A DNA stretch of 64,000 nucleotides. It comes from Ricordea florida (Eukaryota > Cnidaria > Anthozoa > Corallimorpharia > Ricordeidae). Below, piece by piece: positions 47,713-63,385 of this stretch (the first letter of the stretch is position 1; every line of letters begins with the position of its first letter). The position numbers were made by a program, and so were the translations under genes. The notes under the pieces were generated by a model that worked only from the letters and a program-made list of their open reading frames with translations, did no database searches and was not told where the DNA came from. Where the stretch lies: NCBI GenBank assembly GCA_949710005.1, contig OX453274.1, forward strand, positions 36,989,214 to 37,053,213. Direction: 5' to 3'.

Positions 47713-47721
47713 TTTAAAAGA
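47713..47721 (+). promoter_or_regulatory. Early-class promoter motif of PolB
   Basis: TTTAAAAGA, 33 nt before the PolB ATG. The surrounding stretch (GGTTTAAAAGAAAAATCAG) recurs at the mirror position in front of the SAP/zinc gene. Confidence 0.6.
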
Positions 47722-47745
47722 AAAATCAGTGAAATACAATACTAA

Positions 47746-50700
47746 ATGGAACAACAATTACGAGGATTAAAAGTACCGCAACTAAAATCTTTAGTTAGAT
47801 GGTATAATATTCGTGGACGATCTGCGTTTAATAAACCAGAACTTATTAACGCATTGGTTAATATACCTGAAATAACTAATAATATTCAACAAATAACTAA
47901 TAATATTGTGGGGATTGTTAATGAGCTGCGTAATATGCCAATGAGACCAGTAAATCAACCAAATTTACCTCTCCCAATTCCGAATATTGCACCACCTTTA
48001 ACTATTCCCCAACCAATACCAGGTACCCCACCTGGATCACCAGATATAATTAGGCCGGTAACTCCACCCGGATCACCTCCGCCAAGAACTCCACCTGTTA
48101 CACCACCTGGTTCTCCTCCGCTAAGAAAAAGGAAACTAGCACCAACTTTTATAAAACCACAAACACCAAGAACTCTACCCGGTTCTACCCCGTCAAGAAA
48201 AAGAAAACTAGCATCACAAATACCAATTCTTGATGAGCCGGTACCTAAAATTAATGTTCCAATTCTCAAACCAAAGAATATTTTTAAGGTGTTAGATAAA
48301 GATAAGTTTGCCAAAAAGCTTGAAGAATTAGCAAATGAAAACATCATAAAATTTACTAATAAGAAAACTAAACCAAAAAGGGGGGTAACTATATCTGATA
48401 GTGTGAGAGATGAATTGAAGGAAAAAACTAAAAAGAAAAGAACAACAACTCTCAAAATATTTTCAATAAATCTGCATGAAGATGATCCCCCAATTCAAAA
48501 TAATCGGGAAAATATTATTAGAATTAGGAGAGATCTAAATAATGATTTGACAGAAACAATTTATAATGAGTTGGAACCCCAAATAGAAATGGGGGCAAGA
48601 ATTGTTTCCAGTTTTACTGCTATGATCCAAAGAGGAAATGGAGAAATAGCTTACCACACGCACACATTTAGAAGCGGAGGAACTTTTACTTCCCTTTCAG
48701 AAATAAAAGATTATATAGAGAAGTGCGAGGGTGAGAGATTGAGTTTAGAAGGAGCTGCTTGGATGAGAGCATATTTACCCCCAGAAAAGAAAATTAATAA
48801 ACCAGGTGTTAATGAGGGCGGAGTTGAGTTTAGAGAAGTACAAATAAAAGTTATTAATACCAGACAACCTTTAGTTGGGTGCGGAAGATTACCCGATGAA
48901 TTACGAAAGAAAAGATGTATTTATTCCGTAGATGATAAAGATGATAATCTCTGTGTCTGGAGGTGCTTGGCTATTCTTATGAATATCAATTCTGGTAAAC
49001 AAAACCCTGAAAAACGAATAGAGAAACAAGCCCTAAATTTAGCTAGAACTTTTTATGGCTTCAAAAAATTAAAAGGAGAAGAAGTTAGATCGACAAAATT
49101 GGTTGATTTTGAGAAAATTTCAAAAGTTTTCTCCATAAACATCCGGGTTTATGAGCAGAAAGATATATCAAATTTTTCAGTTTGGAAACTGGTGTTTGGG
49201 AAAAATAATTTCAAAGATAATTTACCAACTTTAAATTTAGGTCTTTATAATAATCATGGTTTTTTCATTAAGAATCTAGATCTTCTTGCTCAAAACTGGG
49301 TATGCCAAGGATGTAATCAAAAATTTACCAGGCATGAAGATTTAAAAAGGCATTTTACCAATGAAACATGCACAGGAGGAAAAACAAAAATATTTTGCAC
49401 AGGAGAAAAGATAAAACGCCTCATGAATGAATCTGAAAAAGTTTTTTACGGGGGTAAAATCAATTTTAGTTATAAAGCGTGTCGGTGGATAGAAAACCAA
49501 TCTAAAATTATGGGTAAACATATTCATCATGGGCTTTGTGGTCACGGGGGTGAAAGGTGTTATCGGGATGAAAACGGGAATGAGATTTTGTTTGATGGAT
49601 ACGAGCCCGAGACAAATACCGTTTTTGAGTTTTATGGTTGTAAATGGCATGGGTGTCCGTGTTCATCAACCGACAAAATTAAATATAATGAAACTATTGA
49701 AAGAGAGAATATGATAAAAAGCTTGGGTTATAATGTAGTATCGGTTTGGGAGTGTGAAAATCCTGAATTACCCAATATCTGGTTCAAAAAGAAATTTAAT
49801 CCATATCCTTATTTTATTGATTACGATTTTGAGGGATTATTACAAAAAGAAGATAAACAGATTACCGATGATTTAATTTTTACCCATACCCATATTCCAG
49901 TTAGTGTTGCAATAATCGATAATTTAACAAAAAAACCCGTTTTTCTTTGCAACCAAAATCCTGATCTCCTCATAAAAGAATTCGTTGAAAAATTGGAGGA
50001 AATAAGAAAAATTATAGTAGAAAAGGTTAGAGAAGAATACCCGCTTCCTGATCAAGATTCTTTGCAAAAAAATGTCTTACAAAAATATGAAGAATGGTGT
50101 AACCAAGTACCTGTTTTGGGTTTTAATAGCGGAAAATATGATATCAATTTGATTAAAAGACATTTTATAAAACACATGACCGAAAAAACAAAGGAGATTT
50201 TTATTGCAAAGAAACAGAATAGGTATATGTTTTTATCAACACCGCATTTCAAATTCTTGGATATAATGTCCTACCTTGCGCCTGGAGTTTCTTTTGATTC
50301 TTGGTGCAAAGCAAACAACTGTGAAGCCAAAAAACTTGTACTTCCTTATGAAAAATTGGACGGTTATGATAAGCTTTCCTTAGTTGGACCCGTGAAACAT
50401 GAAGATTTTTACTCTTCCTTGAAAAAGAAAAATATTTCCAAAGAAGAATATGAAGAATATTTGCTCGAATTCGAAAAGAGGGGCTGTGTTACAATGTTAG
50501 ACTGGTTGAAAGAGTATAATTTGAATGATGTTATTCCCTTTCTGGAAGCCCTTGAAAAAACAAGGCGATTATATTATCCGGATGAAATTGATATATTAAA
50601 AGATGCCGTTTCCATCCCAGGAGTATCAATGAGGGCTGTTCTAAATAAATACCAAAAAATGAAGAAGAAAGGTGATCCTGAATTGTATGCCCCGGGGCAA

Positions 50701-52338
50701 TACTGCATTCATAGATGCGAAAAAATTTGTAACAACGAGTTTTGCAAAAAATGCTACAAAATAAGAAAAGATTGTAAAGTATGCGACAAAAACAAGAGTT
50801 ATAAACTATTGAAAACGGGTATGGTTGGAGGGCCTAGTATTTTATTTATGAGATATGCGGAGGCAGGAAAAACAATGATTCGCTCTCATAAATATAAAAG
50901 CCCGAAAAAATGCGTGCGAATTGTTGGCTATGACGCAAATGGTTTATATCTATCCTGTTCTGGACAAGAAATGCCATGCGGAAAAGAAAAATGCATTGAG
51001 ATTGCAAAGCCATCGGATCCTAAATTTATTAAGAAGATTTGCGAAGATATTCTTGCTGATAATCTTTTCGGGTTTTGTCAAGTTGATATCCATGTCCCCG
51101 TTCATCTAAAAGAAAAGTTTGAAGAATTCTCCCCCTTATTTATTGTAGACTCCGTTCCTGAATATTTAGTACCGGAGCCCATGAAAGAATATCAAAGAGC
51201 GACAGGTAGAAAACATCTAAAAGACAATAAAAAATTGCTTGGTGTTACCAAGGCAAAAAAGATATTTTTATATACTCCTATGATAAAATGGTATCTTAAT
51301 CATGGCTTGGAGATTACCGCCATCCATAATATTTTAAAGTATGAATCGGGAAGGCCCTTTGGATTTTTTCCAAAAGAGGTGGCAGATGCAAGAAGAGATG
51401 GAGATATTGAGGTTTTATTGGACAAACTAAGTAAAGCCTTTGATGAAAACAAGATTGACGCTGTAGTGAAAATTACCAATGAATTAAACCAATTTCCTGA
51501 TATATTTAAAGTTATTGAAGAAAATAAAGATATCAAAGTACTGATTGAAAAATTAAAACCAAAGTACAAAGGTTGTAAAGAATTAGCCGACACTAATAAA
51601 CTCAGGGGAAATTCTTTCTACGGAAAAATGATAGAAGATAAAGAAAAACATAAGATTACAAGGTATACAAAAGATGAGGAAGAGGTTGAAAAAGCCCTAA
51701 GATCTGCGTTCTTTGAGGATCTTAATGAAATAAATGACACATATGAAATAATAAAACGAAAAAGATTAATAAAAATAGACAGACCCTATCAATGCGGCAT
51801 CGCGGTGTATCAGCTAGCAAAATTAAGAATGCTGGAATTTTATTACGATTTTCTAGATAAATATCTTGATAGAAAGGATTTTGAGTTGATTCAAATGGAT
51901 ACAGATTCGATGTACATGGGAATTTCAGCCGAAAATTTGGACGATATTATAAAACCCGAAATGAGAGAAGAATACTTTAGTGGCGGGAAAGAAAAATTCC
52001 TATCGACTTCTAAATATCATGACAAGACTCCGGGTTTGTTCAAAAAAGAGTTTGACGGTATTAGAATGATCGCTCTTTCCTCAAAATGTTATTACGCGGA
52101 GGATGAGAAAGGAAAGGCAAAGTACAGTTGCAAAGGTACAATTCATAGACAAAACGAAATGAACTGGGATAGATACATGTCAGCTTTGAAAGGGTCAATT
52201 GATATGTCACAAAATACAGGATTTAGAATCAATGATAACCAAATTGTGACATATACGCAAATTAAAAAGGGATTGAATGGATATTACGATAAAAGATGGG
52301 TTTATGAGGATGGAATTCACACAAAACCATTATTTTAA
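47746..52338 (+). CDS. POLB: Protein-primed family B DNA polymerase (Polinton type)
   Basis: 1530 aa, the replicase of the element. In order: SAP-like DNA-binding motif (about 5-40); proline-rich linker with two PGS-x-P-x-RKRKLA units, likely nuclear signals (about 65-160); a conserved DDNLCVWRCLA segment (about 400); a C2H2 finger (C-x2-C...H-x4-H, about 520-540); a nuclease-like block with DGYEPETNTVFEF and GCKWHGC (about 613-635); the 3'-5' exonuclease with YDFEG (Exo I, about 694), N-x2-KYD (Exo II, about 790) and YNLND (Exo III, about 925); then polymerase motif A YDANGLY (about 1060), motif B GNSFYGK (about 1287), motif C MDTDS (about 1384) and the K-x-Y motif (about 1447). All catalytic residues are present. 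No separate terminal protein gene is recognised; the N-terminal region may supply it. Ends tail to tail with the integrase, overlapping by 9 nt. Confidence 0.96.
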   Translation: MEQQLRGLKVPQLKSLVRWYNIRGRSAFNKPELINALVNIPEITNNIQQITNNIVGIVNELRNMPMRPVNQPNLPLPIPNIAPPLTIPQPIPGTPPGSPDIIRPVTPPGSPPPRTPPVTPPGSPPLRKRKLAPTFIKPQTPRTLPGSTPSRKRKLASQIPILDEPVPKINVPILKPKNIFKVLDKDKFAKKLEELANENIIKFTNKKTKPKRGVTISDSVRDELKEKTKKKRTTTLKIFSINLHEDDPPIQNNRENIIRIRRDLNNDLTETIYNELEPQIEMGARIVSSFTAMIQRGNGEIAYHTHTFRSGGTFTSLSEIKDYIEKCEGERLSLEGAAWMRAYLPPEKKINKPGVNEGGVEFREVQIKVINTRQPLVGCGRLPDELRKKRCIYSVDDKDDNLCVWRCLAILMNINSGKQNPEKRIEKQALNLARTFYGFKKLKGEEVRSTKLVDFEKISKVFSINIRVYEQKDISNFSVWKLVFGKNNFKDNLPTLNLGLYNNHGFFIKNLDLLAQNWVCQGCNQKFTRHEDLKRHFTNETCTGGKTKIFCTGEKIKRLMNESEKVFYGGKINFSYKACRWIENQSKIMGKHIHHGLCGHGGERCYRDENGNEILFDGYEPETNTVFEFYGCKWHGCPCSSTDKIKYNETIERENMIKSLGYNVVSVWECENPELPNIWFKKKFNPYPYFIDYDFEGLLQKEDKQITDDLIFTHTHIPVSVAIIDNLTKKPVFLCNQNPDLLIKEFVEKLEEIRKIIVEKVREEYPLPDQDSLQKNVLQKYEEWCNQVPVLGFNSGKYDINLIKRHFIKHMTEKTKEIFIAKKQNRYMFLSTPHFKFLDIMSYLAPGVSFDSWCKANNCEAKKLVLPYEKLDGYDKLSLVGPVKHEDFYSSLKKKNISKEEYEEYLLEFEKRGCVTMLDWLKEYNLNDVIPFLEALEKTRRLYYPDEIDILKDAVSIPGVSMRAVLNKYQKMKKKGDPELYAPGQYCIHRCEKICNNEFCKKCYKIRKDCKVCDKNKSYKLLKTGMVGGPSILFMRYAEAGKTMIRSHKYKSPKKCVRIVGYDANGLYLSCSGQEMPCGKEKCIEIAKPSDPKFIKKICEDILADNLFGFCQVDIHVPVHLKEKFEEFSPLFIVDSVPEYLVPEPMKEYQRATGRKHLKDNKKLLGVTKAKKIFLYTPMIKWYLNHGLEITAIHNILKYESGRPFGFFPKEVADARRDGDIEVLLDKLSKAFDENKIDAVVKITNELNQFPDIFKVIEENKDIKVLIEKLKPKYKGCKELADTNKLRGNSFYGKMIEDKEKHKITRYTKDEEEVEKALRSAFFEDLNEINDTYEIIKRKRLIKIDRPYQCGIAVYQLAKLRMLEFYYDFLDKYLDRKDFELIQMDTDSMYMGISAENLDDIIKPEMREEYFSGGKEKFLSTSKYHDKTPGLFKKEFDGIRMIALSSKCYYAEDEKGKAKYSCKGTIHRQNEMNWDRYMSALKGSIDMSQNTGFRINDNQIVTYTQIKKGLNGYYDKRWVYEDGIHTKPLF

Positions 52339-53337
52339 AACAGAATTAGGGGGTAACTCTGTATCATAAGGAATAACCTGTAATTCTTCACGCACAAAAC
52401 CTCGCCTTGGGCCATCCTCTAAAAAGTATAAAACAGGCTGATTAGGAGAAATTCTACTTCCAGAAATATAATAAACTTTTATGCTCCAAATGGGATCTGT
52501 GGCTCTTCTTCTTTCTCCTCCTTCAAGTTCACCCGGAGCTAATAAATATCTAACCCTAACTTCGGTTGGTAGTCTAACCTCATCAAGACCCACCACACGT
52601 TTGTAATTTTTAGTTTCAATATTCACCTCTTTCATTTTTATAGCCTCATCGGGCTCTTTACCGGTTATTCTCTTTTTCGTATTATTCAAAGTTTTTAGAA
52701 TAGCTGGTAATCTTTTCATCCACACCCGCGATCGATCATCGCTGATCATTTCTTGCGCATATTGATGACTAAATAATCTTTCTCCTAATATTCTATTTGC
52801 GTTTTCCACAAATGCTTGTGCTCTATGATTACCAGCTTCACTTCTTTGTATCCTCACATTATGGTAATTCATGAGTTTACTAACTTCACCCATAAATTCT
52901 TTCCCAGGATCAACCATTAATGTTTTTGGGAATTTCAATCTTCTAGAATATATTTTCTTAAAAGCTTCTGATATCTCTCGACTTTCTTTTGAGGTTAATG
53001 GCTCAGCATCTTTATATCTCGAGGCGATATCAACCAAAACTAACGCGTATTTATATGTTTTTCTTCCGACTCTATCATGAGGTAAAAATAATAAATCCGC
53101 TTGGTGAATCTGATTGGGTTTATCTACAGTCCAGTGCGGTCTAGGTATATACTTTGGAGCAGGAAGATAGATTTGCCATATTGCCTGTTTCTCTAACCAC
53201 CGTTTTGCCTCATTTTCACTTACTTTAGCCTTCTCAGCTAATTTAGGAATTGCGGAATATCCTTTCCAATACCCCTCGGTTGAATAATATATCCGCTCGA
53301 AGAGCGGGGCCGGCGAAGCCGATATTTTTGACATCAT
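52330..53337 (-). CDS. INT: Retrovirus-like DD35E integrase
   Basis: 335 aa from the first true ATG (a TTG-led frame extends to 53352). It inserts the element by strand transfer, generating the 5-bp duplication. The rve core has Asp in HQADLL (about 81), Asp in LMVDPGKEF (about 143) and Glu in AFVENANR (about 178), with 34 residues between the second Asp and the Glu. The N-terminal segment resembles the helical region of Polinton integrases; the C-terminus (VRYLLAPGELEGG to VREELQVIP) is probably an SH3/chromo-like DNA- or chromatin-binding module. A zinc-binding HHCC is not obvious. Divergently oriented from the capsid genes with a short shared promoter region. Confidence 0.95.
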   Translation of the reverse strand: MMSKISASPAPLFERIYYSTEGYWKGYSAIPKLAEKAKVSENEAKRWLEKQAIWQIYLPAPKYIPRPHWTVDKPNQIHQADLLFLPHDRVGRKTYKYALVLVDIASRYKDAEPLTSKESREISEAFKKIYSRRLKFPKTLMVDPGKEFMGEVSKLMNYHNVRIQRSEAGNHRAQAFVENANRILGERLFSHQYAQEMISDDRSRVWMKRLPAILKTLNNTKKRITGKEPDEAIKMKEVNIETKNYKRVVGLDEVRLPTEVRVRYLLAPGELEGGERRRATDPIWSIKVYYISGSRISPNQPVLYFLEDGPRRGFVREELQVIPYDTELPPNSVLK

Positions 53338-53353
53338 TTTAAAAATAAACAAT

Positions 53354-53366
53354 TATCTTATAAATT
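53354..53366. promoter_or_regulatory. Shared promoter element between INT and the 63-aa ORF
   Basis: TATCTTATAAATT ends 3 nt before the 63-aa ATG. Read on the minus strand it gives TTTATAAGATA, one base from the early motif, 27 nt before the integrase ATG. It may serve both directions. Confidence 0.45.
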
Positions 53367-53369
53367 GAA

Positions 53370-53590: not shown

Positions 53591-54829
53591 ATGACGTCTG
53601 AAAAAATTAATCCAAACAGAATTCCAAAGGAACCATTTGGTTTGAAAGCAGAATCAACCCTGAATAGAATTACTCTAAATCCATCCTCAGCCAGCCCCGG
53701 AGAAACATTATACATAAATATTCCCAAACTCGCCGAGAATTTGGTGATTGTTCCTGGAAGTGTATCTCTTCTATTTGATTTAGATGTCGAGGGGCATGCA
53801 AATAATACGGTTGTAAATAATTTGAGTCGTAATCTTGTAACCAGACTAAAAGTTCTTTTTGGAGGAGAAACATTGCAAGATACTCAAAGATATGATCTAT
53901 TTCAAACGTATCATGATTTATTCTTAACCGAAGAAGAGCGAGAAGATAAATTAAAACAGGGCATTTCTTCCCCAAATATTAGAAAACTCAGAACAAAATC
54001 TGGAGATGCAAAAACACAAGATGTAAAAGAAGTTGCTCTCGCTAATGTACACGGTTCCAAGTATAGAATACCAATAAAGCACCCTATTTTAAACGATCAC
54101 GGTGTTTTTTATCCGAAAGCATTGGAAAATCATCTAATATTTGAGATTACACTCGCTCCAATCAATAATATTCTTATTTTTTCTGACACAACTAAAGCAC
54201 CATCATATTCAATCAAAAACTTGGAGTTAGAATATTCCTCAATTTCAAGCGAATACTTAGCCCGCGAGGCTCAAGCAGCTTATCAAGTCGGTAAAGGATT
54301 CTTTTACGAAAATATTACCTTGCACAAAACTTTTACATTTTCCGTGGGCGGTGATGGTGTTATTAATCAGCATATTAATTTACCGAGAAGATCAATGACA
54401 GGAATATTGTTTTTGTTTTTATTGCCTCAAGCATCAGGAGCAAGGGATTCAGAAAATTTTTATAATCCTGGTATATCTTCCGTTGAAATTGATGTCGATG
54501 GGGTGCCAAATAGAATATACTCTAGGGGAATGATTCCGTCTGATCTTTGGGAATCCGTGAAAAAACGATTCCGACCAACGGGGGAACAAATTTCTTTGAA
54601 AGAAAAAGAATTTTACGCGGATAAGTTTGCTCTTTGGGTTGATACTAGAACGCATCCAGATAATGGTATTCATGGCGGCGGACTTGCTCTAAATAATACG
54701 CATGATGGCGTAAAAATAGAAATTAAAAGGAAACAAAGCGGGTCCGGAACAATAACGTGTCATATGTTTGTCGTAGCAGATGCGATGCTGGAGATTATGA
54801 ATTCAAGTTTGAGATCAATTAAGTACTAA
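53591..54829 (+). CDS. Candidate major capsid protein (double jelly-roll)
   Basis: 412 aa, beta-strand-rich, no membrane segments. Early strands (LVIVPGSVSLLFDLDV), a segment LVTRLKVLFGGETLQD followed by YDLFQTYHDLF, and two similarly built halves are what double-jelly-roll capsid proteins of Polinton-like viruses look like. It immediately precedes the packaging ATPase, the usual neighbour of a capsid gene. It is shorter than typical Polinton hexon proteins (about 600 aa) but near the size of the smallest double-jelly-roll capsids. The function is inferred from composition and position; a structure prediction would decide. Confidence 0.65.
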   Translation: MTSEKINPNRIPKEPFGLKAESTLNRITLNPSSASPGETLYINIPKLAENLVIVPGSVSLLFDLDVEGHANNTVVNNLSRNLVTRLKVLFGGETLQDTQRYDLFQTYHDLFLTEEEREDKLKQGISSPNIRKLRTKSGDAKTQDVKEVALANVHGSKYRIPIKHPILNDHGVFYPKALENHLIFEITLAPINNILIFSDTTKAPSYSIKNLELEYSSISSEYLAREAQAAYQVGKGFFYENITLHKTFTFSVGGDGVINQHINLPRRSMTGILFLFLLPQASGARDSENFYNPGISSVEIDVDGVPNRIYSRGMIPSDLWESVKKRFRPTGEQISLKEKEFYADKFALWVDTRTHPDNGIHGGGLALNNTHDGVKIEIKRKQSGSGTITCHMFVVADAMLEIMNSSLRSIKY

Positions 54830-54841: not shown

Positions 54842-55483
54842 ATGATACAAAAAATCATGGAAGATTTACGAGATAAAATACCATTCCATTGTATTATAAC
54901 AGGACCCACAAATTGCGGAAAAACAAAGTACCTAATTGAACAGCTCCGAGGCCCTTTCCGGAAAGTTTTTGAATATATTGTGTTAATTTGTCCGACTTTT
55001 TCTAAAAATAAAACTTATCATAATTTTGCCTTGGGGGATAAACATTTTTATGTATTATCTCCAGATGCTAGTAACGTTGACGAGATTAATGAATTGTTAA
55101 ATGATTGTCAAACTTTATTCTCCGGAACAAATACTTTAATAATTTTAGATGATTGCGCCGTATCCACCGATCTGAAGAAAAGAACAAATAAATTTATAGA
55201 TTTAGCATTCTCCGGAAGGCATCATGGATTATCGGTTTGGGTTCTCACCCAGCAATTAACATCCATAGCAAAACCATTCCGCGAAAATGTAGCATGCGTT
55301 GTTACTTTTCATAATCCATCGCAGAAAGGCATGAAAATGTTTTTCGAGGATTACGGCGGTGATTTGGATTATGAATTGGGTAAAAAGTTTATGCAGCTCC
55401 TGAAAACTGAAAAATATTCTAGGTTATGTTTGAGTTTGCGTTACCCATTTAATTGCTATTTAGAGATTCCCGAGGTGGTTTAA
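54842..55483 (+). CDS. ATP: A32/FtsK-HerA type genome-packaging ATPase
   Basis: 213 aa; would power DNA translocation into the capsid. Walker A GPTNCGKT at 21-28, Walker B LIILDD at 99-104, then a sensor-like LTQQ at 135-138 and FRENVACVV, the order seen in A32-like ATPases of Polintons and large DNA viruses. It starts 12 nt after the capsid stop codon without a promoter motif, suggesting joint expression with the capsid gene. Confidence 0.93.
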   Translation: MIQKIMEDLRDKIPFHCIITGPTNCGKTKYLIEQLRGPFRKVFEYIVLICPTFSKNKTYHNFALGDKHFYVLSPDASNVDEINELLNDCQTLFSGTNTLIILDDCAVSTDLKKRTNKFIDLAFSGRHHGLSVWVLTQQLTSIAKPFRENVACVVTFHNPSQKGMKMFFEDYGGDLDYELGKKFMQLLKTEKYSRLCLSLRYPFNCYLEIPEVV

Positions 55484-55489: not shown

Positions 55490-56041
55490 ATGTCTAATAT
55501 TGAAGATTACATTGACCAAACAGAAAAAACTGACCGACCGGAGGGAGAATCTGGAAAAAGTGAGGATTTTGAAGTTAAACAAGAATCGCTGGCCATTCTC
55601 GCAGCTCTTGGAACCACAAAGGAATATTTAGGAGTTGATATGAGTTTAGGCGATATAAAAAAATTATCGGAAAAAGATGTAGAAAAATATTTTAATCGTT
55701 ATCAAGCGGTAATGGGTAAGAAAATTAACGGAGGATTGGTAGATTCATCCCTTCAATTAGTTTCCAAAATTATTTCTTATTTAGTTCCAGTTGATGATAT
55801 AGAATCTCTTTGCAATGATCTGAAGAATGATGATTTGGTTAATCGAGAACTATCAAACATTGTGGGTCTCTTAGCATTGAAAGCAGGAAGATTGGCAGCA
55901 CTTGCTAGCGGTATATTCCAGGTTGCAAAACACATCAAATTCAACAAAAATCAGCAATTTCTAAGAGAAGAACCAGTAAATTCTAACACAACTGATAAGG
56001 AAACTAAGCAATCTGCTGAAGGCGTTGATACAGTATATTAA
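55490..56041 (+). CDS. Hypothetical virion-module protein (183 aa)
   Basis: Acidic, disordered N-terminus (about 1-30), a helical core with SLAILAALGTTKEYLGVD and IVGLLALKAGRLAALASG, and a polar tail. The alanine/leucine helix at about 125-150 could be membrane-associated or a helical bundle. It starts 6 nt after the ATPase stop with no promoter motif, so it probably shares the capsid-ATPase transcript. No family recognised. Confidence 0.8.
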   Translation: MSNIEDYIDQTEKTDRPEGESGKSEDFEVKQESLAILAALGTTKEYLGVDMSLGDIKKLSEKDVEKYFNRYQAVMGKKINGGLVDSSLQLVSKIISYLVPVDDIESLCNDLKNDDLVNRELSNIVGLLALKAGRLAALASGIFQVAKHIKFNKNQQFLREEPVNSNTTDKETKQSAEGVDTVY

Positions 56042-56078: not shown

Positions 56079-56516
56079 ATGTCTGAACAAACTGAACAAA
56101 GCGGAGGAGATGCGGAGCAAATTACAGCAGATCCCAAACTCGAAAATAAAGATTCTAAAAAGAGGGAGAAAGATCCTAAAAAAGTAGCAGCTGGAAAGAA
56201 ACTAGCCGAATATAATAAAAAAGCAAAAGATGCATTAGCCAGGGAGATGAAACGCGAAGAAAAAATGAAACAGGAAGAGGAGCAAAATGAAAATACATAT
56301 AGAGAAGCGAAATCATGGCTTCCAGAGTTATCTTTTACTACTGTTTTATCCGTTATTGGTTTAGGGTTTACAGCATTTGATCTTTTTATGAGATATAAGG
56401 AAAAAGCTGGGGTTGAATATTCTAATAGGATACCTGATTTATCACAAGTTCCGCAAATACCCCAACCAAAAAAGATACCATTTTCTGCAGCCCCAAAATC
56501 TTTAGGAATGGAATAA
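56079..56516 (+). CDS. Basic single-pass membrane protein (145 aa)
   Basis: The N-terminal half is lysine/glutamate-rich (KDPKKVAAGKKLAEYNKK, then AREMKREEKMKQ), predicted helical and able to bind DNA or another charged partner. A transmembrane segment (FTTVLSVIGLGFTAFDLF) lies at about 86-103, followed by a proline-rich tail. The layout suits a protein linking an internal membrane to the genome or core; this is inference. No family name recognised. Confidence 0.8.
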   Translation: MSEQTEQSGGDAEQITADPKLENKDSKKREKDPKKVAAGKKLAEYNKKAKDALAREMKREEKMKQEEEQNENTYREAKSWLPELSFTTVLSVIGLGFTAFDLFMRYKEKAGVEYSNRIPDLSQVPQIPQPKKIPFSAAPKSLGME

Positions 56517-56561: not shown

Positions 56562-56780
56562 ATGTCAACTGAAAACAAACTTGTGAAAACTGTAACTGAT
56601 TCAGCAGTACTTATCGGATTGGGGGCTGGGGTTGGATATGTAGCCAAAAAAGTAATGAAAGAATCATTTTTGAGTGATCCGTCCTCAAGTATTACAAATT
56701 ATGCAAAGTGGGTAGCTGTATTATCCGGAAGCATGTATCTTAAAACATATTTAGAGGATCAAAAGATTTTACCAAAATAA
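56562..56780 (+). CDS. Small membrane protein (72 aa)
   Basis: Two hydrophobic stretches: SAVLIGLGAGVGYVA (about 14-28) and WVAVLSGSMYLKTYL (about 49-63). No homology recognised. Its stop overlaps the next start in TAATG (56778-56782), so the downstream protein may be made by termination-reinitiation. Confidence 0.75.
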   Translation: MSTENKLVKTVTDSAVLIGLGAGVGYVAKKVMKESFLSDPSSSITNYAKWVAVLSGSMYLKTYLEDQKILPK

Positions 56781-57178
56781 TGGCATTAGCATCAATAGCA
56801 ATGATGATTGGAGGAGCTGTATTAAATGCATCTGCCTTTGTTGGCGGAAATTATCTTGCAAAAAGTCTTTCAGGGTATAATGCGGATACAGAAAAAATAC
56901 GACACGATAAAGCAATGGAAAAATATCAAAGAGATTACTCAGAATATCAGGAAAAAAGACAAAAAATGCTTGATTGGAAAATGAAAAGAAAAGATGAAAA
57001 ATATCAAGCATCAAAAAATATTTCGGCCACAAATCAGGCTTTTGAATTGTACGCCCAAATGAATGAACCAAAATTCTCTGATTATTACAAACCAAGTGAT
57101 AGTCAAAAGACAGGAGAAATGGCATATGTCGGGGCTGGAATGTTAGGTTTAGGTTACGCGGTCAGTAAAATATTATAA
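56780..57178 (+). CDS. Membrane-flanked coiled-coil protein (132 aa)
   Basis: N-terminal hydrophobic segment (IAMMIGGAVLNASAFVGGNYL), a charged helical middle (about 35-80, many K/E/R/Q) and a C-terminal hydrophobic segment (AYVGAGMLGLGYAV). Both ends could span or enter a membrane with the middle as a spacer. It has no promoter motif of its own; its start overlaps the 72-aa stop by one base. Followed by a hairpin terminator. Confidence 0.8.
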   Translation: MALASIAMMIGGAVLNASAFVGGNYLAKSLSGYNADTEKIRHDKAMEKYQRDYSEYQEKRQKMLDWKMKRKDEKYQASKNISATNQAFELYAQMNEPKFSDYYKPSDSQKTGEMAYVGAGMLGLGYAVSKIL

Positions 57179-57183
57179 ATTAT

Positions 57184-57221
57184 TTTGTTATGTAACCAGT
57201 AATTTTGGTTATATAACATAA
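57184..57221. terminator. Hairpin between convergent genes, copy 1
   Basis: Arms GTTATGTAACCA and TGGTTATATAACATAA with a loop of about 7 nt, exactly between the 132-aa gene (+) and the 273-aa gene (-). A near-identical hairpin lies at 62331-62368. Works for either strand as a palindrome. Confidence 0.7.
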
Positions 57222-57227: not shown

Positions 57228-58049
57228 TTACATGAAACTCCCAAAATCAGAATCTTCATATTCATCATAACCAATATGGGAAGAAGCAGATTCGCCGTCT
57301 GAAATAACTACTTCTTGATTATATTTTTTGCGTGGAGCTAATCTTTTAATTTCTTTTTTCGTTTCAACGAGAGCGTCATAAAGTTTTACTTGCAATGAAA
57401 TACGCTGACCAATAAATATTGATTCAATTTTGATTGAACACTCTGCGTGGCAACCTTTATTGACTAAATCTTTAGGGTCTATTGTTTCATTGCAATCCTC
57501 ACTTCTAATGTCATAAAATTTTGTAAGAAATTCTCCTTTTTTGTATGAAATTAATTTGGGATATAATGTTGGTCCTCTTTCAGGAACTTTTTGCATATAA
57601 GGTTTGTTTTTACCATCCTCAATTTTTTCCATTTTCCAATAGAGAGGATTAAAACCTCCCTTTGATTTAGTAAGATCAGATCTTTTCAACTCAAATCTAT
57701 CAATTTCTTCTTTATTTTCTAAAATATGATCAATGCAGCAATCTACTATTTCATTAAATTTTTCTATCCATTTTTCCTCTTCATCGGTGGGTTTATTTCC
57801 ACTCCATAAACATAAAGGAAAAGAATAAGTTGAAAAACTTTCAGAAACTCCAAATGAATACAATCGGCTGGTTGGAATAACTAGTTCTCCTTCAGTTCCA
57901 TCTTCATTTTTTGTAAAAATTTTTATTCTTCTAAATTCAACCTTTGGTTTTTTATCTGGAACTTCACCTAAAATTGGTTTAGAAAAGATCATACTTTCTT
58001 GGGGGTTATAATTATTAATATCTATTAATTGAGTATTTTCGTTCATCAT
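57228..58049 (-). CDS. Candidate viral ssDNA-binding protein (273 aa)
   Basis: Soluble, mixed alpha/beta, with SFPLCLWSG, ERGPTLYPKL and GCHAECSIKIESIFIGQRISLQVKLYDA, strands resembling an OB-like fold seen in ssDNA-binding proteins of nucleocytoplasmic large DNA viruses. The C-terminus is an acidic tail ending in aromatic residues (DEYEDSDFGSF), a feature of several phage SSBs. It is transcribed opposite to the structural genes and carries the early-class motif, like PolB. Family assignment is tentative; a profile search would settle it. Confidence 0.5.
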   Translation of the reverse strand: MMNENTQLIDINNYNPQESMIFSKPILGEVPDKKPKVEFRRIKIFTKNEDGTEGELVIPTSRLYSFGVSESFSTYSFPLCLWSGNKPTDEEEKWIEKFNEIVDCCIDHILENKEEIDRFELKRSDLTKSKGGFNPLYWKMEKIEDGKNKPYMQKVPERGPTLYPKLISYKKGEFLTKFYDIRSEDCNETIDPKDLVNKGCHAECSIKIESIFIGQRISLQVKLYDALVETKKEIKRLAPRKKYNQEVVISDGESASSHIGYDEYEDSDFGSFM

Positions 58050-58076
58050 TTTATTTCTTTTTCTTTTATATTTTTT

Positions 58077-58085
58077 TCTTTTAAA
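58077..58085 (-). promoter_or_regulatory. Early-class promoter motif of the 273-aa gene
   Basis: TTTAAAAGA on the minus strand, 36 nt before the ATG at 58049. Confidence 0.55.
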
Positions 58086-58110
58086 TCATTTTTTCTTCAG
58101 CTCTAAGGGG

Positions 58111-58119
58111 TCTAAAGAT
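58111..58119 (+). promoter_or_regulatory. Late-class promoter motif of the 389-aa gene
   Basis: TCTAAAGAT, 32 nt before the ATG at 58143; back to back with the early motif at 58077-58085. Confidence 0.6.
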
Positions 58120-58142
58120 TTCATACTGATGAGTAAAAAATC

Positions 58143-59312
58143 ATGGCAGAAGAAATACCAATGGAAGATTTTTCAAGAGATAATGATGGTGATACTGATT
58201 TGGATTGGGATGATAACCCATTTTATCAAACCGCAAACACATCTTCAAACCTTGAACAAGATTATCCTGGTTATGATGATGAAGAGACAGCAGAAACTGA
58301 TCAATTGTTGGGTATGGAAAATGAAAAAGATCGGGTGTGGAGAGATATTTTAAATAAATTTCCAAATGCTGAACCCAATTTTCTTTTCAAATATAATGAG
58401 TGGGGTAAAATCTTAGCCGCAATCCCCCGAAGCGATCCTAAGAAAATTGTATGGCACAATTTATTAGATAAAAATGATGATATTAATAAAAAACTCCCTG
58501 CCACCATATTGAATGCTCTGGGTAAAAAAGCAGGAGAAGTTGTGCAGGCCGGTGATGATCTTTTATCGCAATTGAATGAAAAAAATGAAGAAATTAGGGA
58601 TTTGCGTAATGCATTAGATGGTTTAAGAGCAGTAGCGGAAACAAGCCAATTCGAAATAGATCGATATGTTTCAATTGAAAAAGAGTTGAGGGGTATGATT
58701 GAACGGCACCAAACCACAATCGCAGAAAAAGATAGTTATTTAGAAGACGCAGTTAGACAGAAGGTTGATGCAAAACAATATGCAGAAACTTTACTTAATG
58801 ATTTGAAAGAAATCAAAACCGAGAATGAAAAGGGTAAGAAAGATTTGGCTAGCTTGAAAAAGATTGAACAAAGTCGAGATAGGTTGGCTAAAAGGGTTGA
58901 AACTTACGATGAACTATCGAGAAAACAGTTAATATTAAACGAAGAAGAAATGGCTGATATTGGGAGAAAAAATGATGAAATACTTAAAAATTTACCACTT
59001 AGGGAGAGATTAAAGTATATATTCAAAAAGTATGGTTTTACAGTTTTTGCTGTTCTAAGTGCGGTAGGTGCCATCATTGGGGTTATAGTTTCTAATCTTT
59101 CAAGGGGTTTATCTGCTTTGGGAAAGGGTGTTAGTAATGGATTAAAAACTATAGGAAAAAAACTAGGTGAAATATTACCCGGGATGATTGGCGCAATAGT
59201 TAGCTTTCTTTTCAAAACAGCTGGTGAGGTTATTGGATTTTTAGGTAAAAATGCTTGGCTTTTGATAATGGCTGTGGTTCTATATTTTGTGGAACAAATG
59301 AAAGGAAAGTAA
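58143..59312 (+). CDS. Coiled-coil protein with C-terminal membrane domain (389 aa)
   Basis: Very acidic N-terminus (about 1-58), an ordered segment with two Trp, a long coiled coil (about 130-290, heptad-like L/I spacing), then a hydrophobic, glycine-rich C-terminal quarter (FAVLSAVGAIIGVIVSNL, MIGAIVSFLFKTAGEVIGFL, WLLIMAVVLYFV). This layout resembles membrane-anchored spike or fusion stalks and also scaffold proteins; which one cannot be told. No signal peptide. Structural-class promoter motif. Confidence 0.8.
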   Translation: MAEEIPMEDFSRDNDGDTDLDWDDNPFYQTANTSSNLEQDYPGYDDEETAETDQLLGMENEKDRVWRDILNKFPNAEPNFLFKYNEWGKILAAIPRSDPKKIVWHNLLDKNDDINKKLPATILNALGKKAGEVVQAGDDLLSQLNEKNEEIRDLRNALDGLRAVAETSQFEIDRYVSIEKELRGMIERHQTTIAEKDSYLEDAVRQKVDAKQYAETLLNDLKEIKTENEKGKKDLASLKKIEQSRDRLAKRVETYDELSRKQLILNEEEMADIGRKNDEILKNLPLRERLKYIFKKYGFTVFAVLSAVGAIIGVIVSNLSRGLSALGKGVSNGLKTIGKKLGEILPGMIGAIVSFLFKTAGEVIGFLGKNAWLLIMAVVLYFVEQMKGK

Positions 59313-59316
59313 CAAA

Positions 59317-59325
59317 TTTAAAGAT
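59317..59325 (+). promoter_or_regulatory. Late-class promoter motif of the 231-aa-frame gene
   Basis: TTTAAAGAT, 34 nt before the ATG chosen at 59351. Its position supports that start over the upstream ATG at 59255, which lies inside the 389-aa gene. Confidence 0.6.
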
Positions 59326-59350
59326 AACACGGAGATCAGTAAAATACAAT

Positions 59351-59950
59351 ATGGATGAATACAATAGAATTTACCCTGGATTACCCAATAATACTGATCC
59401 TACTAATTTCAGACTGCAAAAATCAAGCGAAGTATTACAAAATCTTGAGAAAGAAATTAAACATTACGAAGAAGTAAGGAAAAAATATAATAGGGCGAGA
59501 GGAATATGTACAAAAATAAGTGTTTGTGGCGGGGTGATTTCAGTTATTCTATCAGCAAGCGGATTAGGAACTTCTCTTACTGGTTTTGGCGCTATTGTTG
59601 GCGTGCCTTTGGGGGTTGTAGGCGGTATTTTTGGTGGATTATCGGTTGGATTCGGTTATGCATCAAAAAGACTTTCAAATAAAGTTAGTAAACACGAACA
59701 AACCGCTGCAATTGCAAAATCAAAATTAAACACCATTAACGATTTGGTTTCAAAAGCTCTGAAAGATAATTCTATATCCGATCAAGAATTTTCCATAATT
59801 TTGGCGGAGTTGGAAAAGTTCCAAAAACTAAAACTAGAAGTTCGTCAAAAATTTAGAAAAGATACAGAAAAAAACTTCGACATGTCGATTATAAGGAAGA
59901 AAGTTCGAGAAGATCTATTGAAAGAACTTACCGGAGGGAAAGGACATTAA
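59351..59950 (+). CDS. Membrane-hairpin protein (199 aa)
   Basis: Starts MDEYNRIYPG. A charged N-terminal helix is followed by a long glycine-rich hydrophobic stretch (VISVILSASGLGTSLTGFGAIVGVPLGVVGGIFGGLSVGFGY, about 62-102) likely forming a membrane hairpin, then a basic/coiled-coil C-terminal half (AKSKLNTINDLVSKAL, LEKFQKLKLEVRQKF). No family recognised; the pattern resembles pore- or vesicle-associated proteins only superficially. 38 nt after the preceding stop, with its own promoter motif. Confidence 0.8.
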   Translation: MDEYNRIYPGLPNNTDPTNFRLQKSSEVLQNLEKEIKHYEEVRKKYNRARGICTKISVCGGVISVILSASGLGTSLTGFGAIVGVPLGVVGGIFGGLSVGFGYASKRLSNKVSKHEQTAAIAKSKLNTINDLVSKALKDNSISDQEFSIILAELEKFQKLKLEVRQKFRKDTEKNFDMSIIRKKVREDLLKELTGGKGH

Positions 59951-60010
59951 AACTTGTGTATGAGAAAACTGAAGTTGGTTGCAATTGTTTTACATCTTAT
60001 TCTTAAAAGA

Positions 60011-60019
60011 TCTAAAGAT
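60011..60019 (+). promoter_or_regulatory. Late-class promoter motif of the 530-aa gene
   Basis: TCTAAAGAT, 36 nt before the ATG at 60047; an overlapping TTAAAAGAT lies at 60003. Confidence 0.6.
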
Positions 60020-60046
60020 CACATTATTTGAAACACAAAGAATAAG

Positions 60047-61639
60047 ATGTTATTTGATGATTTCAGAACTCGGTATCCAAACGCTAACATTAAAAAATTT
60101 ACATTTGTGAATGACCCGTTTGGCGGATATATTAAATGGAAAGTTAATGGAACAACAATTATGTCCAATGATGATCCTTCTGGGGAAACTTGGACTGCAA
60201 ATCTTTCTAATAATTTGAAAACATTATTATGGGAAGATTTGGGATTAGAAAATAAAGTTAAGGTAAGTTCATTTCCAAAAAGTTTAACATTTACAAAACA
60301 AACATATCCAATACCCGGAGTTAAATTTGATGAATTTGCTAATGATGTAACAATGATGTTAACTAATTTAGATATATATGTTTCAGAAAAAGATCATTTC
60401 ACCGCGGCAATGCCAAATGTATTTAAAAATCAGACTGTAGAACTTACTAGTGGAAAAGAAGCTAGAGCTTGGTTAAATAAACCAAATATTAAGCACTGGC
60501 CTCAACAATTAAACATGGCGGTTTGGTGCGCAACATCCGGTTGCGGTGTTAGTTTAATTGAAATTTTAAATTACCCGAAAGTTATTAGAAGTTTTTTTAT
60601 TTTTCACGTATACTTTACCATCAGAAGAATATTGGAGGAATTAAATGTACCATTACCCGGCAGACAAACTTTTTCTTCAAAAAATAATTCATACAACAAA
60701 AATATTTATAATAGATTGTGCGCAGAATTTGGATTAAGTAATAATCAAGATTTTAAAGGATGGAATAAACCTTTAGCTGATTTTAGATTTAAGGGCGGTG
60801 CAAACCATGGTGTCGGAGATGTATTTATCGATTATGGTAAAGGATACATCCCTCCTGGGGGCGGTAGTTCACAATCAGTAGGAGGAGGAAAACAAAATGT
60901 TAGAATTGTAAGAAATTACGACCCTGATGCAAATATTTGGCCAAGCAGAGCAAATAAATTTTCTGATGCTGGGGGAAAGAAAATTGATGGAAATTTAATA
61001 TCCATGCTGCGAAATGATCATTTCATTGATTTTCAATACGCATGGTTTATACCAGAATCTGGATACGGATTAACAAAGGCGGGATTGGGGAGAATAAATA
61101 GATCAGTTGAGGCTTTTGTTTATTGCATATTGGGGGCTCAAGTTAATACCAGAAATTCTATTATTGGCGCCGGCGGCGGAGCAATAGAAACACAAAATGA
61201 ATTCAAAGACTTATTTGAAAGTTCTGTTAAAGTAAATGATATTTCTAAATCCGTTCAAAATTACCAACAATCTGTGCAAGAAACTAAATTACGGCTTGAT
61301 TTGGCTGTTGCTCCAGGAGTTTGGTTGATGCCAAGTAATATGATTATAAATACAGAGAGCGCGGTTGGGTACAATAATAATCTGAAAATAGCAACAGAAG
61401 ATATGAAATTTGGGATAAATAATTCAATAAATGCGGAAACAAAAAATGTCGGAATACCTAATAGCTTAGGATCTTCAAAAGTTTTATTAAATACCAATCC
61501 TCAACCAGAGAAACCTAAATTAAGCAATAACGATAAATCTGACAAAACAGATGATATAGAAACATCTTCTTCTCATCAAAATAATCTTATTGTTTTAATT
61601 CTTGGTGGAGGCTTATTATCTTGGTTTTTATTTCGATAA
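60047..61639 (+). CDS. Large tail-anchored virion protein candidate (530 aa)
   Basis: The largest protein of the structural module. A folded N-terminal half with FVNDPFGGYIKWKVNG, a conserved-looking core WPQQLNMAVWCATSGCGV and FFIFHVYFTIRRILEEL; a Gly/Ser-rich hinge (PPGGGSSQSVGGG, about 275); a second folded region; a polar Asn/Lys/Ser-rich stalk (about 480-510); and a C-terminal membrane anchor (LIVLILGGGLLSWFLF) ending in Arg. This suggests a protein fixed in a membrane with most of its mass on one side. Attachment or minor-capsid roles are possible; no family recognised. Confidence 0.82.
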   Translation: MLFDDFRTRYPNANIKKFTFVNDPFGGYIKWKVNGTTIMSNDDPSGETWTANLSNNLKTLLWEDLGLENKVKVSSFPKSLTFTKQTYPIPGVKFDEFANDVTMMLTNLDIYVSEKDHFTAAMPNVFKNQTVELTSGKEARAWLNKPNIKHWPQQLNMAVWCATSGCGVSLIEILNYPKVIRSFFIFHVYFTIRRILEELNVPLPGRQTFSSKNNSYNKNIYNRLCAEFGLSNNQDFKGWNKPLADFRFKGGANHGVGDVFIDYGKGYIPPGGGSSQSVGGGKQNVRIVRNYDPDANIWPSRANKFSDAGGKKIDGNLISMLRNDHFIDFQYAWFIPESGYGLTKAGLGRINRSVEAFVYCILGAQVNTRNSIIGAGGGAIETQNEFKDLFESSVKVNDISKSVQNYQQSVQETKLRLDLAVAPGVWLMPSNMIINTESAVGYNNNLKIATEDMKFGINNSINAETKNVGIPNSLGSSKVLLNTNPQPEKPKLSNNDKSDKTDDIETSSSHQNNLIVLILGGGLLSWFLFR

Positions 61640-61665
61640 TGTTTTGATTACCCAAGATAGCTCAA

Positions 61666-61674
61666 TTTAAAGAT
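61666..61674 (+). promoter_or_regulatory. Late-class promoter motif of the 209-aa gene
   Basis: TTTAAAGAT, 33 nt before the ATG at 61699. Confidence 0.6.
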
Positions 61675-61698
61675 GAGTTTAATGTAATCAAAACAAAA

Positions 61699-62328
61699 AT
61701 GTTCAGTATTTCAATGTACGATTCAGAAACTAGAATTTATTTAGATCCGCCGCTGAAAAATCTTCGTGAGATACAGCTTCTGGATTGTAATATACAAACC
61801 AAAAGACTAATAACTTTAAGGAGCCAAGAAAAAATAACCGATGAAAAAGGCGGACCTTTAGTAATATTTAATCCAGGAATATATTCCATAAATGATATAA
61901 AAATATTAATTGAGCTTGGCGAAAAGACAAAAGATATAACAATTATTATCGGAGATAATTTTGCATACATAATCAACAATAAATCAATTAACATTAAATT
62001 TACTCAGGGTTTGCAAAATTCTTTAGGTGTGCCGGAGGTTTTATTTAAAATAAGTCAAATAGATATAACTATAAAAGAACCTTTGAGACTTTTATGCAGT
62101 ATAGTTGATAATAGAATGTCATACGCGAATAAAGGTAAAAATGGAGATCTTACAAAAATACAACCATCCCAATTGTTAGCAAACATACCATCAAAAGATT
62201 ACCCCACAATTCCTGTTAGAAAATATGATAACTTGATTAACCATTTTGATTTAACTATCTTAGACTCTGAATGGAAAAAATTTAATCTTAAGGGTTCTCC
62301 CATAACTTTTAGTTTAAGATTTAGATAA
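61699..62328 (+). CDS. Candidate penton-like minor capsid protein (209 aa)
   Basis: Beta-rich and soluble: short strands such as FSISMYDSETRIYL, ITIIIGDNFAYIIN, LRLLCSIVDNR, then a proline-containing loop and the closing FDLTILDSEW...SPITFSLRFR. Size and strand pattern fit a single jelly roll of the penton type in Polinton-like viruses, where 'L-R-x-x-C-x-x-V/I-D' near the middle is familiar. It is the last gene of the rightward structural block. Function inferred; structure prediction needed. Confidence 0.6.
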   Translation: MFSISMYDSETRIYLDPPLKNLREIQLLDCNIQTKRLITLRSQEKITDEKGGPLVIFNPGIYSINDIKILIELGEKTKDITIIIGDNFAYIINNKSINIKFTQGLQNSLGVPEVLFKISQIDITIKEPLRLLCSIVDNRMSYANKGKNGDLTKIQPSQLLANIPSKDYPTIPVRKYDNLINHFDLTILDSEWKKFNLKGSPITFSLRFR

Positions 62329-62330
62329 AT

Positions 62331-62368
62331 TTTTGTTATGTAACCATTTATTGGGTTATATAACATAA
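62331..62368. terminator. Hairpin between convergent genes, copy 2
   Basis: Arms TTTTGTTATGTAACC and GGTTATATAACATAA around a short loop, between the 209-aa gene (+) and the 171-aa gene (-), starting 2 nt after one stop and ending at the other. Confidence 0.7.
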
Positions 62369-62884
62369 TTATGCCCATCTTTCTTCCAAATCTCTCAATT
62401 CTTGAAAATCTAAATATCTGCTTGGCTGCCAGACTGCAGCAACTATTTCATCATGCAGACTTTTGTAGAATTTGTTTTTACGTAAAACTTTATATGGATT
62501 TGTATATATACTTACCCAAAATGTATCAATGAGAACTTTTTGATTAATCAACGCATTTCTGAATTTTGTTGCCTCTGGACGATCATTTAAAAAATCATTA
62601 GAATTTTCATTGGAGGGAAATATTCCTGACATATCGCATTTTGGAGTAAAAGAAAAACCATAATAATGCTTATGCCCATTATCTTGTGTATAATTAATTT
62701 GAAAATCAACCAATTCATCTTTTCCAATATCTTCATATTTAATAGAAAGAGCTTTTGATAAATTATGTAAGCAATCTTCTTTTATTAATCTCAAAAAATC
62801 CATATTTGGAATTTTTTTATCATTAAAATATTCCAAGGTAAATCCTATATTACATTTACGTATTTTTTTTACTATTCTTGCCAT
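62369..62884 (-). CDS. Hypothetical accessory protein (171 aa)
   Basis: A soluble protein with a basic N-terminus (MARIVKKIRKC), a mixed-charge middle (DFLNDRPEATKFRNALI) and a C-terminus rich in Arg/Glu (YLDFQELRDLEERW). No catalytic signature: in particular no His-Asp-Gln-Cys arrangement of an adenovirus-type protease. Early-class promoter motif, leftward like the SSB candidate. No family recognised. Confidence 0.75.
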   Translation of the reverse strand: MARIVKKIRKCNIGFTLEYFNDKKIPNMDFLRLIKEDCLHNLSKALSIKYEDIGKDELVDFQINYTQDNGHKHYYGFSFTPKCDMSGIFPSNENSNDFLNDRPEATKFRNALINQKVLIDTFWVSIYTNPYKVLRKNKFYKSLHDEIVAAVWQPSRYLDFQELRDLEERWA

Positions 62885-62906
62885 CTTTTTTTTTATTTTA
62901 TATTTT

Positions 62907-62916
62907 ATCTTTTAAA
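62907..62916 (-). promoter_or_regulatory. Early-class promoter motif of the 171-aa gene
   Basis: TTTAAAAGAT on the minus strand, 32 nt before the ATG at 62884. Confidence 0.55.
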
Positions 62917-62964
62917 ATATCAATTTTGTTATCAAACCAAAATAAAGGTTTCATAACATAATTT

Positions 62965-63351
62965 TCAACATTCCTTACAATGATACTTTTGTTTATTATG
63001 TTTGCATATTTGTGATCCGCCGCATTCTTTACAAAAACTTTTTTGCTTGTTATGAAAACATATTTCTGAACCATCGCATAATATACAGTAAGACTTTCTT
63101 TTCCCATGAACGCATATTTGTGATCCCTCACACTCTTTACAAGTATATTTTTTAATTCTATGTTCACAATAATAATAATAATTATACATTAAAATAGCTT
63201 TTGTAAATAACTTATCAATATCCTCATCTGAAAATTTCCCCAACTCATTAATTAAATCAGCTTTAATCATTTTATGTCGTCCCTTAATTTTCAACTGCCT
63301 TGCAATAAATTTTAGTTGCGGAACATTTAAACTTTGTAATTTTTGATCCAT
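62965..63351 (-). CDS. SAP-domain protein with Cys/His zinc repeats (128 aa)
   Basis: Start chosen at MDQKLQ because the longer frame above it runs through the terminal repeat. Residues 5-38 form a SAP-like motif clearly related to the one that opens PolB (shared VPQLK, I-x-GR, LIN-x-L). After a Tyr-rich linker, residues 60-128 hold repeated units of the type C-x-H-x5-8-C-K-x-C-x-GSQIC, a zinc-binding repeat pattern also known from giant-virus and algal proteins. Likely a nucleic-acid-binding accessory or regulator. Early-class promoter. Confidence 0.82.
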   Translation of the reverse strand: MDQKLQSLNVPQLKFIARQLKIKGRHKMIKADLINELGKFSDEDIDKLFTKAILMYNYYYYCEHRIKKYTCKECEGSQICVHGKRKSYCILCDGSEICFHNKQKSFCKECGGSQICKHNKQKYHCKEC

Positions 63352-63376
63352 CTTAATATTATATTTCACTGATTTT

Positions 63377-63385
63377 TCTTTTAAA
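63377..63385 (-). promoter_or_regulatory. Early-class promoter motif of the SAP/zinc gene
   Basis: TTTAAAAGA on the minus strand, 34 nt before the ATG at 63351, in the same sequence context as the PolB motif. Confidence 0.6.

Follow-up and report, generated by a model that had tools for sequence, protein, structure and literature searches.

Two classes of promoter-like sequence, resembling those of giant viruses and virophages, in a Polinton-like element of Ricordea florida

The window analyzed here is a stretch of 64,000 nucleotides (nt) from the genome of Ricordea florida (Cnidaria, Corallimorpharia; GenBank assembly GCA_949710005.1, contig OX453274.1, positions 36,989,214 to 37,053,213 of the forward strand), and all positions below are counted from its first letter. 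It contains a Polinton-like element, present in many copies in the host genome, whose genes are preceded by two classes of promoter-like sequence. The element spans positions 47283-63786 and has at both ends terminal inverted repeats (TIRs) of 347 nt. The insertion is probably recent, because the TIR arms are 100% identical. Each TIR holds five imperfect 48-nt tandem repeats (47346-47584 and 63485-63723) with a spacing of 39-56 nt. A 6-bp target site duplication is absent at the arms as delimited, where the outside bases share TCG at most, and a search of the rest of the window at E 0.01 gave no further fragments of the element genes. Ten open reading frames (ORFs) of the flanks were scanned; the collagen, VWA and type IV collagen C4 domains encoded there point to an animal host.

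The genes and ends of the element are given below with their strand. Boxes are placed relative to the ATG, and the classes are named early and late after their presumed timing.

47283..47629, + strand: left TIR, 347 nt, 100% complementary to 63440-63786
47746..52338, + strand: PolB-like gene, 1530 amino acids (aa), N-terminus resembling that of the SAP gene
52330..53337, - strand: rve integrase (PF00665, 7.2e-9)
53591..54829, + strand: major capsid protein (MCP) candidate (Capsid_N, 5.1e-4)
54842..55483, + strand: A32-type packaging ATPase (PF04665, 8.5e-12)
55490..56041, + strand: 183-aa gene, box TTTAGAGAT at -31
56079..56516, + strand: 145-aa gene, box TCTAAAAAC at -32
56562..56780, + strand: 72-aa gene, box TTTAAAAGT at -33, TCTAAAG at -43
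56780..57178, + strand: 132-aa gene, box TTTAGAGGA at -30
57228..58049, - strand: SSB candidate (DUF2738; PF10927, 1.1e-55), early class
58143..59312, + strand: 389-aa gene, late class (ORF, promoter clusters)
59351..59950, + strand: 199-aa gene, late class (ORF, promoter clusters)
60047..61639, + strand: 530-aa gene, late class (ORF, promoter clusters)
61699..62328, + strand: 209-aa gene (o209), late class (ORF, promoter clusters)
62369..62884, - strand: 171-aa gene, early class (ORF, promoter clusters)
62965..63351, - strand: SAP/Rho_N-like gene with cysteine-rich repeats, early class (ORF, Pfam)
63440..63786, - strand: right TIR, partner of the left TIR

The rve integrase, A32-type ATPase, capsid-like protein, PolB-like protein and long TIRs are shared with animal Polintons/Mavericks and adintoviruses. 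The 1530-aa protein is presumed to be a PolB from palm motifs picked out by eye; a polymerase was named for it by none of Pfam, PDB and PHROGs. The MCP candidate is a weak match to Capsid_N, under the threshold (20.1 bits, cut-off 24). The predicted model of the DUF2738 protein is nearest to the SSB of phage Enc34 (E 0.0095, probability 0.97; no match below 0.001), and this predicted fold supports the SSB label. With a Pfam threshold of 0.05, none of the 16 ORFs matched a maturation protease. In the SAP gene, three 54-nt repeats (62976-63152) code for cysteine/histidine-rich units. The 171-aa protein was considered as a transcription factor, and the assignment was unsupported (mean pLDDT, the model confidence score, 69; best Foldseek E 0.0058, none below 0.001).

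In 14 of the 16 genes, a box of the sequence TYTARA begins 30-36 nt upstream of the ATG. At the same distance (-36 to -30), TYTARA was present at only 2.5% of 551 non-gene ATGs and at 3.3% of random positions, and none of 2000 mononucleotide shuffles matched the count of 14. The exact box is missing at the integrase, which has a box-like TTTATAAGA at about -27, and at the ATPase; the box of the MCP candidate is TTTAAAGGT at -34. A preliminary description of this DNA, made from the letters alone, had proposed two longer forms of the box, TTTAAAAGA for replication and accessory genes and TYTAAAGAT for structural genes, as an early/late code. Their sites in the element are the following.

47713..47721, + strand: TTTAAAAGA box of PolB, -33
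58077..58085, - strand: TTTAAAAGA box of SSB, -36
58111..58119, + strand: TCTAAAGAT box of the 389-aa gene, -32
59317..59325, + strand: TTTAAAGAT box of the 199-aa gene, -34
60011..60019, + strand: TCTAAAGAT box of the 530-aa gene, -36
61666..61674, + strand: TTTAAAGAT box of the 209-aa gene, -33
62908..62916, - strand: TTTAAAAGA box of the 171-aa gene, -32
63377..63385, - strand: TTTAAAAGA box of SAP, -34, within an inverted copy of the PolB promoter

All eight spacings given in that description (33, 34, 32 and 36 nt for TTTAAAAGA; 32, 34, 36 and 33 nt for TYTAAAGAT) are correct, and the weaker variants that it placed before the 145- and 72-aa genes were found (TCTAAAAAC at -32 and TTTAAAAGT at -33). 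TTTAAAAGA occurs four times in the element and five times in the window, TYTAAAGAT four times in each, and 8/8 sites of the element lie on the correct strand with their first base 32-36 nt ahead of an annotated ATG (binomial 2e-10 per motif, with the motifs picked after the data had been seen). Window-wide, neither motif is enriched, with 30/100 and 54/100 shuffles reaching the observed counts; the position is non-random. An expectation-maximization motif search (width 9) scored 50.6, where the best of 30 control sets, searched with fewer restarts, reached 38.2; in the solution that scored 50.6, the sites of a few genes lay outside the box.

The split between the two forms had been said to follow function and not strand. 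Function and strand are confounded in the window copy taken alone: function gives p=0.010 (0.024 with PolB and SAP merged) and strand p=0.045. The PolB and SAP promoters are not independent, since they are inverted copies of each other (60 nt, 85%). Across related copies a split by function persisted, as described below.

Related copies were all drawn from the host's own genome (538 Mb), i.e. from one species. Genome-wide, 4649 first-look candidates were obtained for o209 (150 scored and matched) and 6119 for a related MCP (102 scored and matched). Promoters were taken per gene from 87 loci and the window, and those of each gene were grouped into clusters at 85% identity. Locus L001 (the window copy itself), L071 (no start), starts with less than 60 nt upstream, matches starting after residue 25 and SAP loci that were matched by the PolB query too were dropped; L002/L039 and L003/L040 are the same copies. 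The early set (PolB, SAP, SSB and 171-aa) comprised 37 clusters, 31 with the box, and the late set (389-, 199-, 530- and 209-aa, MCP, 145-, 72- and 132-aa) 45 clusters, 41 with the box, some mis-set starts (e.g. the 389-aa gene of L039) being scored as having none. The MCP and 132-aa genes were put into the late set by this analysis, beyond the structural genes and weaker variants of the preliminary description. The integrase, 63-aa, ATPase and 183-aa genes (12 clusters) were left outside both classes. The box keeps its position across the copies while the flanking sequence varies.

Two promoter classes that follow function persist in these same-genome copies, and their sharper marks are an upstream AAAATTGA in the early class and a C at box position 2 in the late class. 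Exact AAAATTGA lies upstream of the box in 16/37 early clusters (PolB 3/6, SAP 5/17, SSB 3/5, 171-aa 5/9) and in 0/45 late clusters. With one mismatch allowed the figures are 33/37 and 5/45; the exact counts matter more, because one-mismatch matches arise more easily in AT-rich DNA. C at box position 2 was seen in 0/31 early and 16/41 late boxes, the remaining late boxes being TTTA; among the promoters examined, TCTA boxes stand only before structural genes. The ratio of G at position 7 to G at position 8 is 10:16 in the early class and 36:1 in the late class. Fisher values are 3e-7 (exact AAAATTGA), 3e-5 (C at position 2) and 2e-7 (G at position 7 or 8); with related clusters, these values exaggerate the contrast. 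In the 12 unclassed clusters, five have the box and none has AAAATTGA even at one mismatch; G at position 7 and G at position 8 occur twice each. The contrast of TTTAAAAGA with TYTAAAGAT, in the form first proposed, turned out not to be diagnostic: it is a tendency with exceptions in orthologues. Strand is not the cause of the split, because PolB, on the + strand, has AAAATTGA (exact in 3/6 and with at most one mismatch in 6/6 clusters) and the integrase, on the - strand, has none (0/4).

AAAATTGA was spotted by eye, and an unbiased ranking of 8-mers was run afterwards. It ranked first among the 8-mers of the early upstream zone and was found in 10/24 early and 0/29 late clusters when promoters are clustered across genes at 75% identity; at 70% the signal is also seen (7/19 and 0/22). 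None of 500 dinucleotide shuffles reached the observed value at either level. In 50 loci (0.5 Mb, both strands counted), AAAATTGA occurs 28 times, and 13 of these sites lie at -60 to -36 of the 33 early promoters (expected 0.03), with none at 122 late and none at 88 other promoters. Genome-wide, AAAATTGATTTAAAAG was found 274 times and AAAATTGATTTAAAGG 101 times, and the reversed control of each gave 0. Along C1-C5 (to C5:10.93 Mb), AAAATTGATTTAAAAG lies 42-46 nt upstream of 11/37 SSB copies, with no site on the opposite strand, 7/35 PolB places have it at most 800 nt upstream of the match, and 10 groups each have two or three AAAATTGATTTAAAAG sites inside a span of 17 kb. When 100 of the 274 sites were compared with these places, 18 were at SSB (window copy included) or PolB and 82 were unassigned. 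Six extra SSB promoters (6 of 141 places) had AAAATTGA, two exactly and four with one mismatch. In the window copy, the early motif takes the following forms.

47688..47697, + strand: degenerate early motif AAAAATTTGA before PolB; AAAATTGA is exact in some related copies
58086-58094, - strand: AAAAAATGA preceding the SSB box; AAAATTGA in several related copies
62920..62927, - strand: AAAATTGA of the 171-aa gene at -43, the sole exact early motif in the 16 promoters of this copy

In loci L007, L045 and L073-L077, PolB, SAP and the 171-aa gene are preceded by near-identical early promoter cassettes, which suggests that early promoters have been exchanged between these genes.

AT-rich hairpins were observed at two of the three convergent gene junctions and at the end of SAP.

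57183..57221, no strand: hairpin at the convergent 132-aa/SSB ends, of the same kind as the o209 hairpin
62331..62368, no strand: hairpin at the convergent 209-aa/171-aa ends, an inverted repeat conserved in copies
62927..62958, no strand: hairpin with one mismatch, between the SAP stop and the 171-aa promoter, which it adjoins

A TGTTATGTAAC-loop-GTTATATAACA type of inverted repeat follows the o209 stop in 28/28 loci (26 distinct copies), and a hairpin of the same kind follows SAP alone in eight loci (seven distinct copies). At the overlapping PolB/integrase ends the hairpin is missing. Stems of at least 12 Watson-Crick pairs in the element are only the two junction hairpins, and five mononucleotide shuffles gave 1, 0, 0, 0 and 0. 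Arm positions 7, 8 and 11 vary, partly on both sides (seven distinct arm pairs). Predicted RNA energies are lower than in shuffles on the + strand (z of -4.9 and -3.4) and less markedly so on the - strand (-2.4 and -1.3). The hairpins may serve as 3'-end signals.

We favor the reading, with a probability of about 0.55, that the element carries a two-class cis code of nucleocytovirus or virophage type, which is read in trans by a giant-virus-like apparatus. Under this reading, the TYTARA core box about 33 nt before nearly every ATG would give each gene its own promoter. Replication and accessory genes (PolB, SAP, SSB, 171-aa), with AAAATTGA or a one-base variant either abutting the box or separated from it by 2-3 or 10-13 nt, would form the early class and be read first. 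Structural genes, with no AAAATTGA, mostly TYTAAAG and C allowed at position 2, would form the late class and, marked by TYTAAAG alone, be read later. Converging units would be terminated by the AT-rich hairpins. The reader would come from a co-infecting virus in the manner of virophages, and it is placed in trans because no RNA polymerase was recognized among the 16 ORFs of the element by Pfam. The preliminary description had inferred the element's own or virus-like transcription control; the virus-like part is borne out by the signals, and own control is, given the same Pfam result, better understood as cis signals for machinery that comes in trans.

In mimiviruses, AAAATTGA precedes early genes and hairpin-forming palindromes act as poly(A) signals at transcript ends (PMC4402537); in Cafeteria roenbergensis virus (CroV), AAAATTGA is early and a TCTA flanked by A/T is late (PMC5294985). 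The element resembles the mimivirids (mimivirus, megavirus, CroV) in AAAATTGA before genes of the early class and possibly in the hairpins at gene ends and, for CroV, in the TCTA of part of the late boxes. It differs in the shared TYTARA core box downstream of AAAATTGA, and mimivirids encode the RNA polymerase that was not recognized here. Virophage promoters match those of their giant viruses (PMC8547959, PMC10945749, PMC11464507); for Sputnik the match is partial, and the changes in expression were not accounted for by it (PMC11998528). This element has in common with virophages and endogenous mavirus-like elements (Maveriviricetes) that it is small, integrated and capsid-coding and has giant-virus-type promoters. 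The element, in contrast, is in an animal host with no helper known, and the mavirus-type TCTA makes up part of the late class only. The DNA polymerase promoter of Invertebrate iridescent virus 6 contains AAAATTGATTATTTG at -19 to -2 of the transcription start site (PMC5294985), close to AAAATTGATTTAAAAG of the element; it is a single reported promoter in a large virus. Cnidarian MCPs alone among those of metazoans lie outside the main Maverick-Polinton cluster, and insertions of nucleocytoplasmic large DNA viruses in a cnidarian are cited (PMC10120064), both of which fit the giant-virus reading. No promoter code for animal Polintons, Mavericks or adintoviruses was present among the matches listed in the open-licence PubMed Central literature.

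In beta- and gammaherpesviruses, late genes have a TATT box that is read by a virus-encoded TATA-binding-protein (TBP)-like factor. As in the element, a variant of a TATA-like box sets late apart from early genes; no such TBP-like factor was recognized in the element. The viral pre-initiation complex of these viruses has been described (PMC6541308).

Several observations weigh against the favored reading. The window copy has one exact AAAATTGA promoter, with PolB and SSB one base off and SAP two, and its 72-aa gene has G at position 8. SAP and 171-aa orthologues often have TTTAAAG, and the 183-aa orthologues (L009-L038, another subfamily) have the TTTAAAAGA box without AAAATTGA, though they lie in the structural block. 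The exact box is missing in 6/37 early and 4/45 late clusters. The copies share ancestry and the early promoters look exchanged, so that the P-values are not to be taken literally. Host flanks of equal length have 4-7 stems of at least 12 pairs, more than the element, and the pair changes in the hairpins come from seven distinct arm pairs, five of which have one mismatch. Capsid_NCLDV gave no match in the host genome, where the control was silent too. In addition, host RNA polymerase II (Pol II) could transcribe copies that are integrated in an animal nucleus, and TTTAAA can pass for a TATA variant.

The last two points belong to the main rival, which we consider possible at about half the weight of the favored reading: the boxes would act as TATA variants for host Pol II, about 30 nt upstream of start sites almost on the ATG, AAAATTGA would be an auxiliary site for a host factor, and the classes would reflect expression strength, not time. 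The spacing from TATA to start is about 30 nt, and the constant box-to-ATG distance of 30-36 nt suits a TATA-like element whose transcripts have leaders about 0-6 nt long. The element sits in an animal nuclear genome and has no RNA polymerase recognized of its own. Set against this, TATAAA was found at none of 33 early promoters and in four matches at 122 late promoters, a pyrimidine at box position 2 is the rule, and the 3' ends carry hairpins.

It is rather unlikely that the signals go back to an ancestor shared by Polintons and giant viruses and that, with no helper, a factor encoded by the element or the host reads them today. Protein homologues of the element genes are numerous, and among the best 120 of 312 SSB matches, many metagenomic contigs, some longer than 100 kb, encode DUF2738/SSB homologues of about 50-60% identity; the coral Stylophora pistillata, with two entries, is the sole organism-named source among them. 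These homologues indicate that genes of the element and probably of large viruses are related, and the DUF2738 gene is probably common to both. This relatedness speaks for the shared-ancestry reading. Against it, no transcription factor was recognized among the element proteins, and the 171-aa model is of low confidence with no clear fold match. DNA of relatives was obtained neither from IMG/VR, with MCP or SSB (each as single sequence and as alignment), PolB or the hairpin pattern as queries, nor from bacterial and archaeal genomes or phages.

Quite improbable is an artefact of relatedness, in which cassette copying (inverted end duplication, exchange) gave rise to the early promoters, the late ones form a separate lineage, and no functional split exists. 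The inverted PolB/SAP duplicates and the near-identical cassettes of other copies speak for it, but AAAATTGA recurs in dissimilar contexts and at SSB, and the signal persists at 70% cross-gene clustering (7/19 against 0/22). Chance matches in AT-rich DNA, with which the unenriched window-wide counts agree, are refuted by the positional tests and by conservation.

The two-class code makes the transcription of animal Polintons, their possible formation of particles and the reasons for their persistence testable from existing RNA data. The code hints that virophage-type parasitism of giant viruses extends to animals and that the host lineage is or was infected by giant viruses. Traces of such viruses in the host genome are thin: four partial Pox_VLTF3-like pieces (C15:18661274, C8:15643102, C12:7234181 and C6:16806129), the two best with stops, are possible nucleocytovirus insertions. 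A tentative and on balance doubtful extension of the favored reading is an animal virophage system, i.e. a Polinton lineage, with many integrated copies, whose genes would carry signals for transcription and 3'-end formation by a nucleocytovirus infecting the animal. Its copies would stay silent until the virus arrives and might form an inducible reservoir against giant viruses, like the mavirus-like elements in Cafeteria.

A 35-nt repeat around TATCTTATAAATT was also seen at 53351-53385 and 53572-53606, just upstream of the starts of the 63-aa ORF and the MCP candidate, and it may be an additional promoter element.

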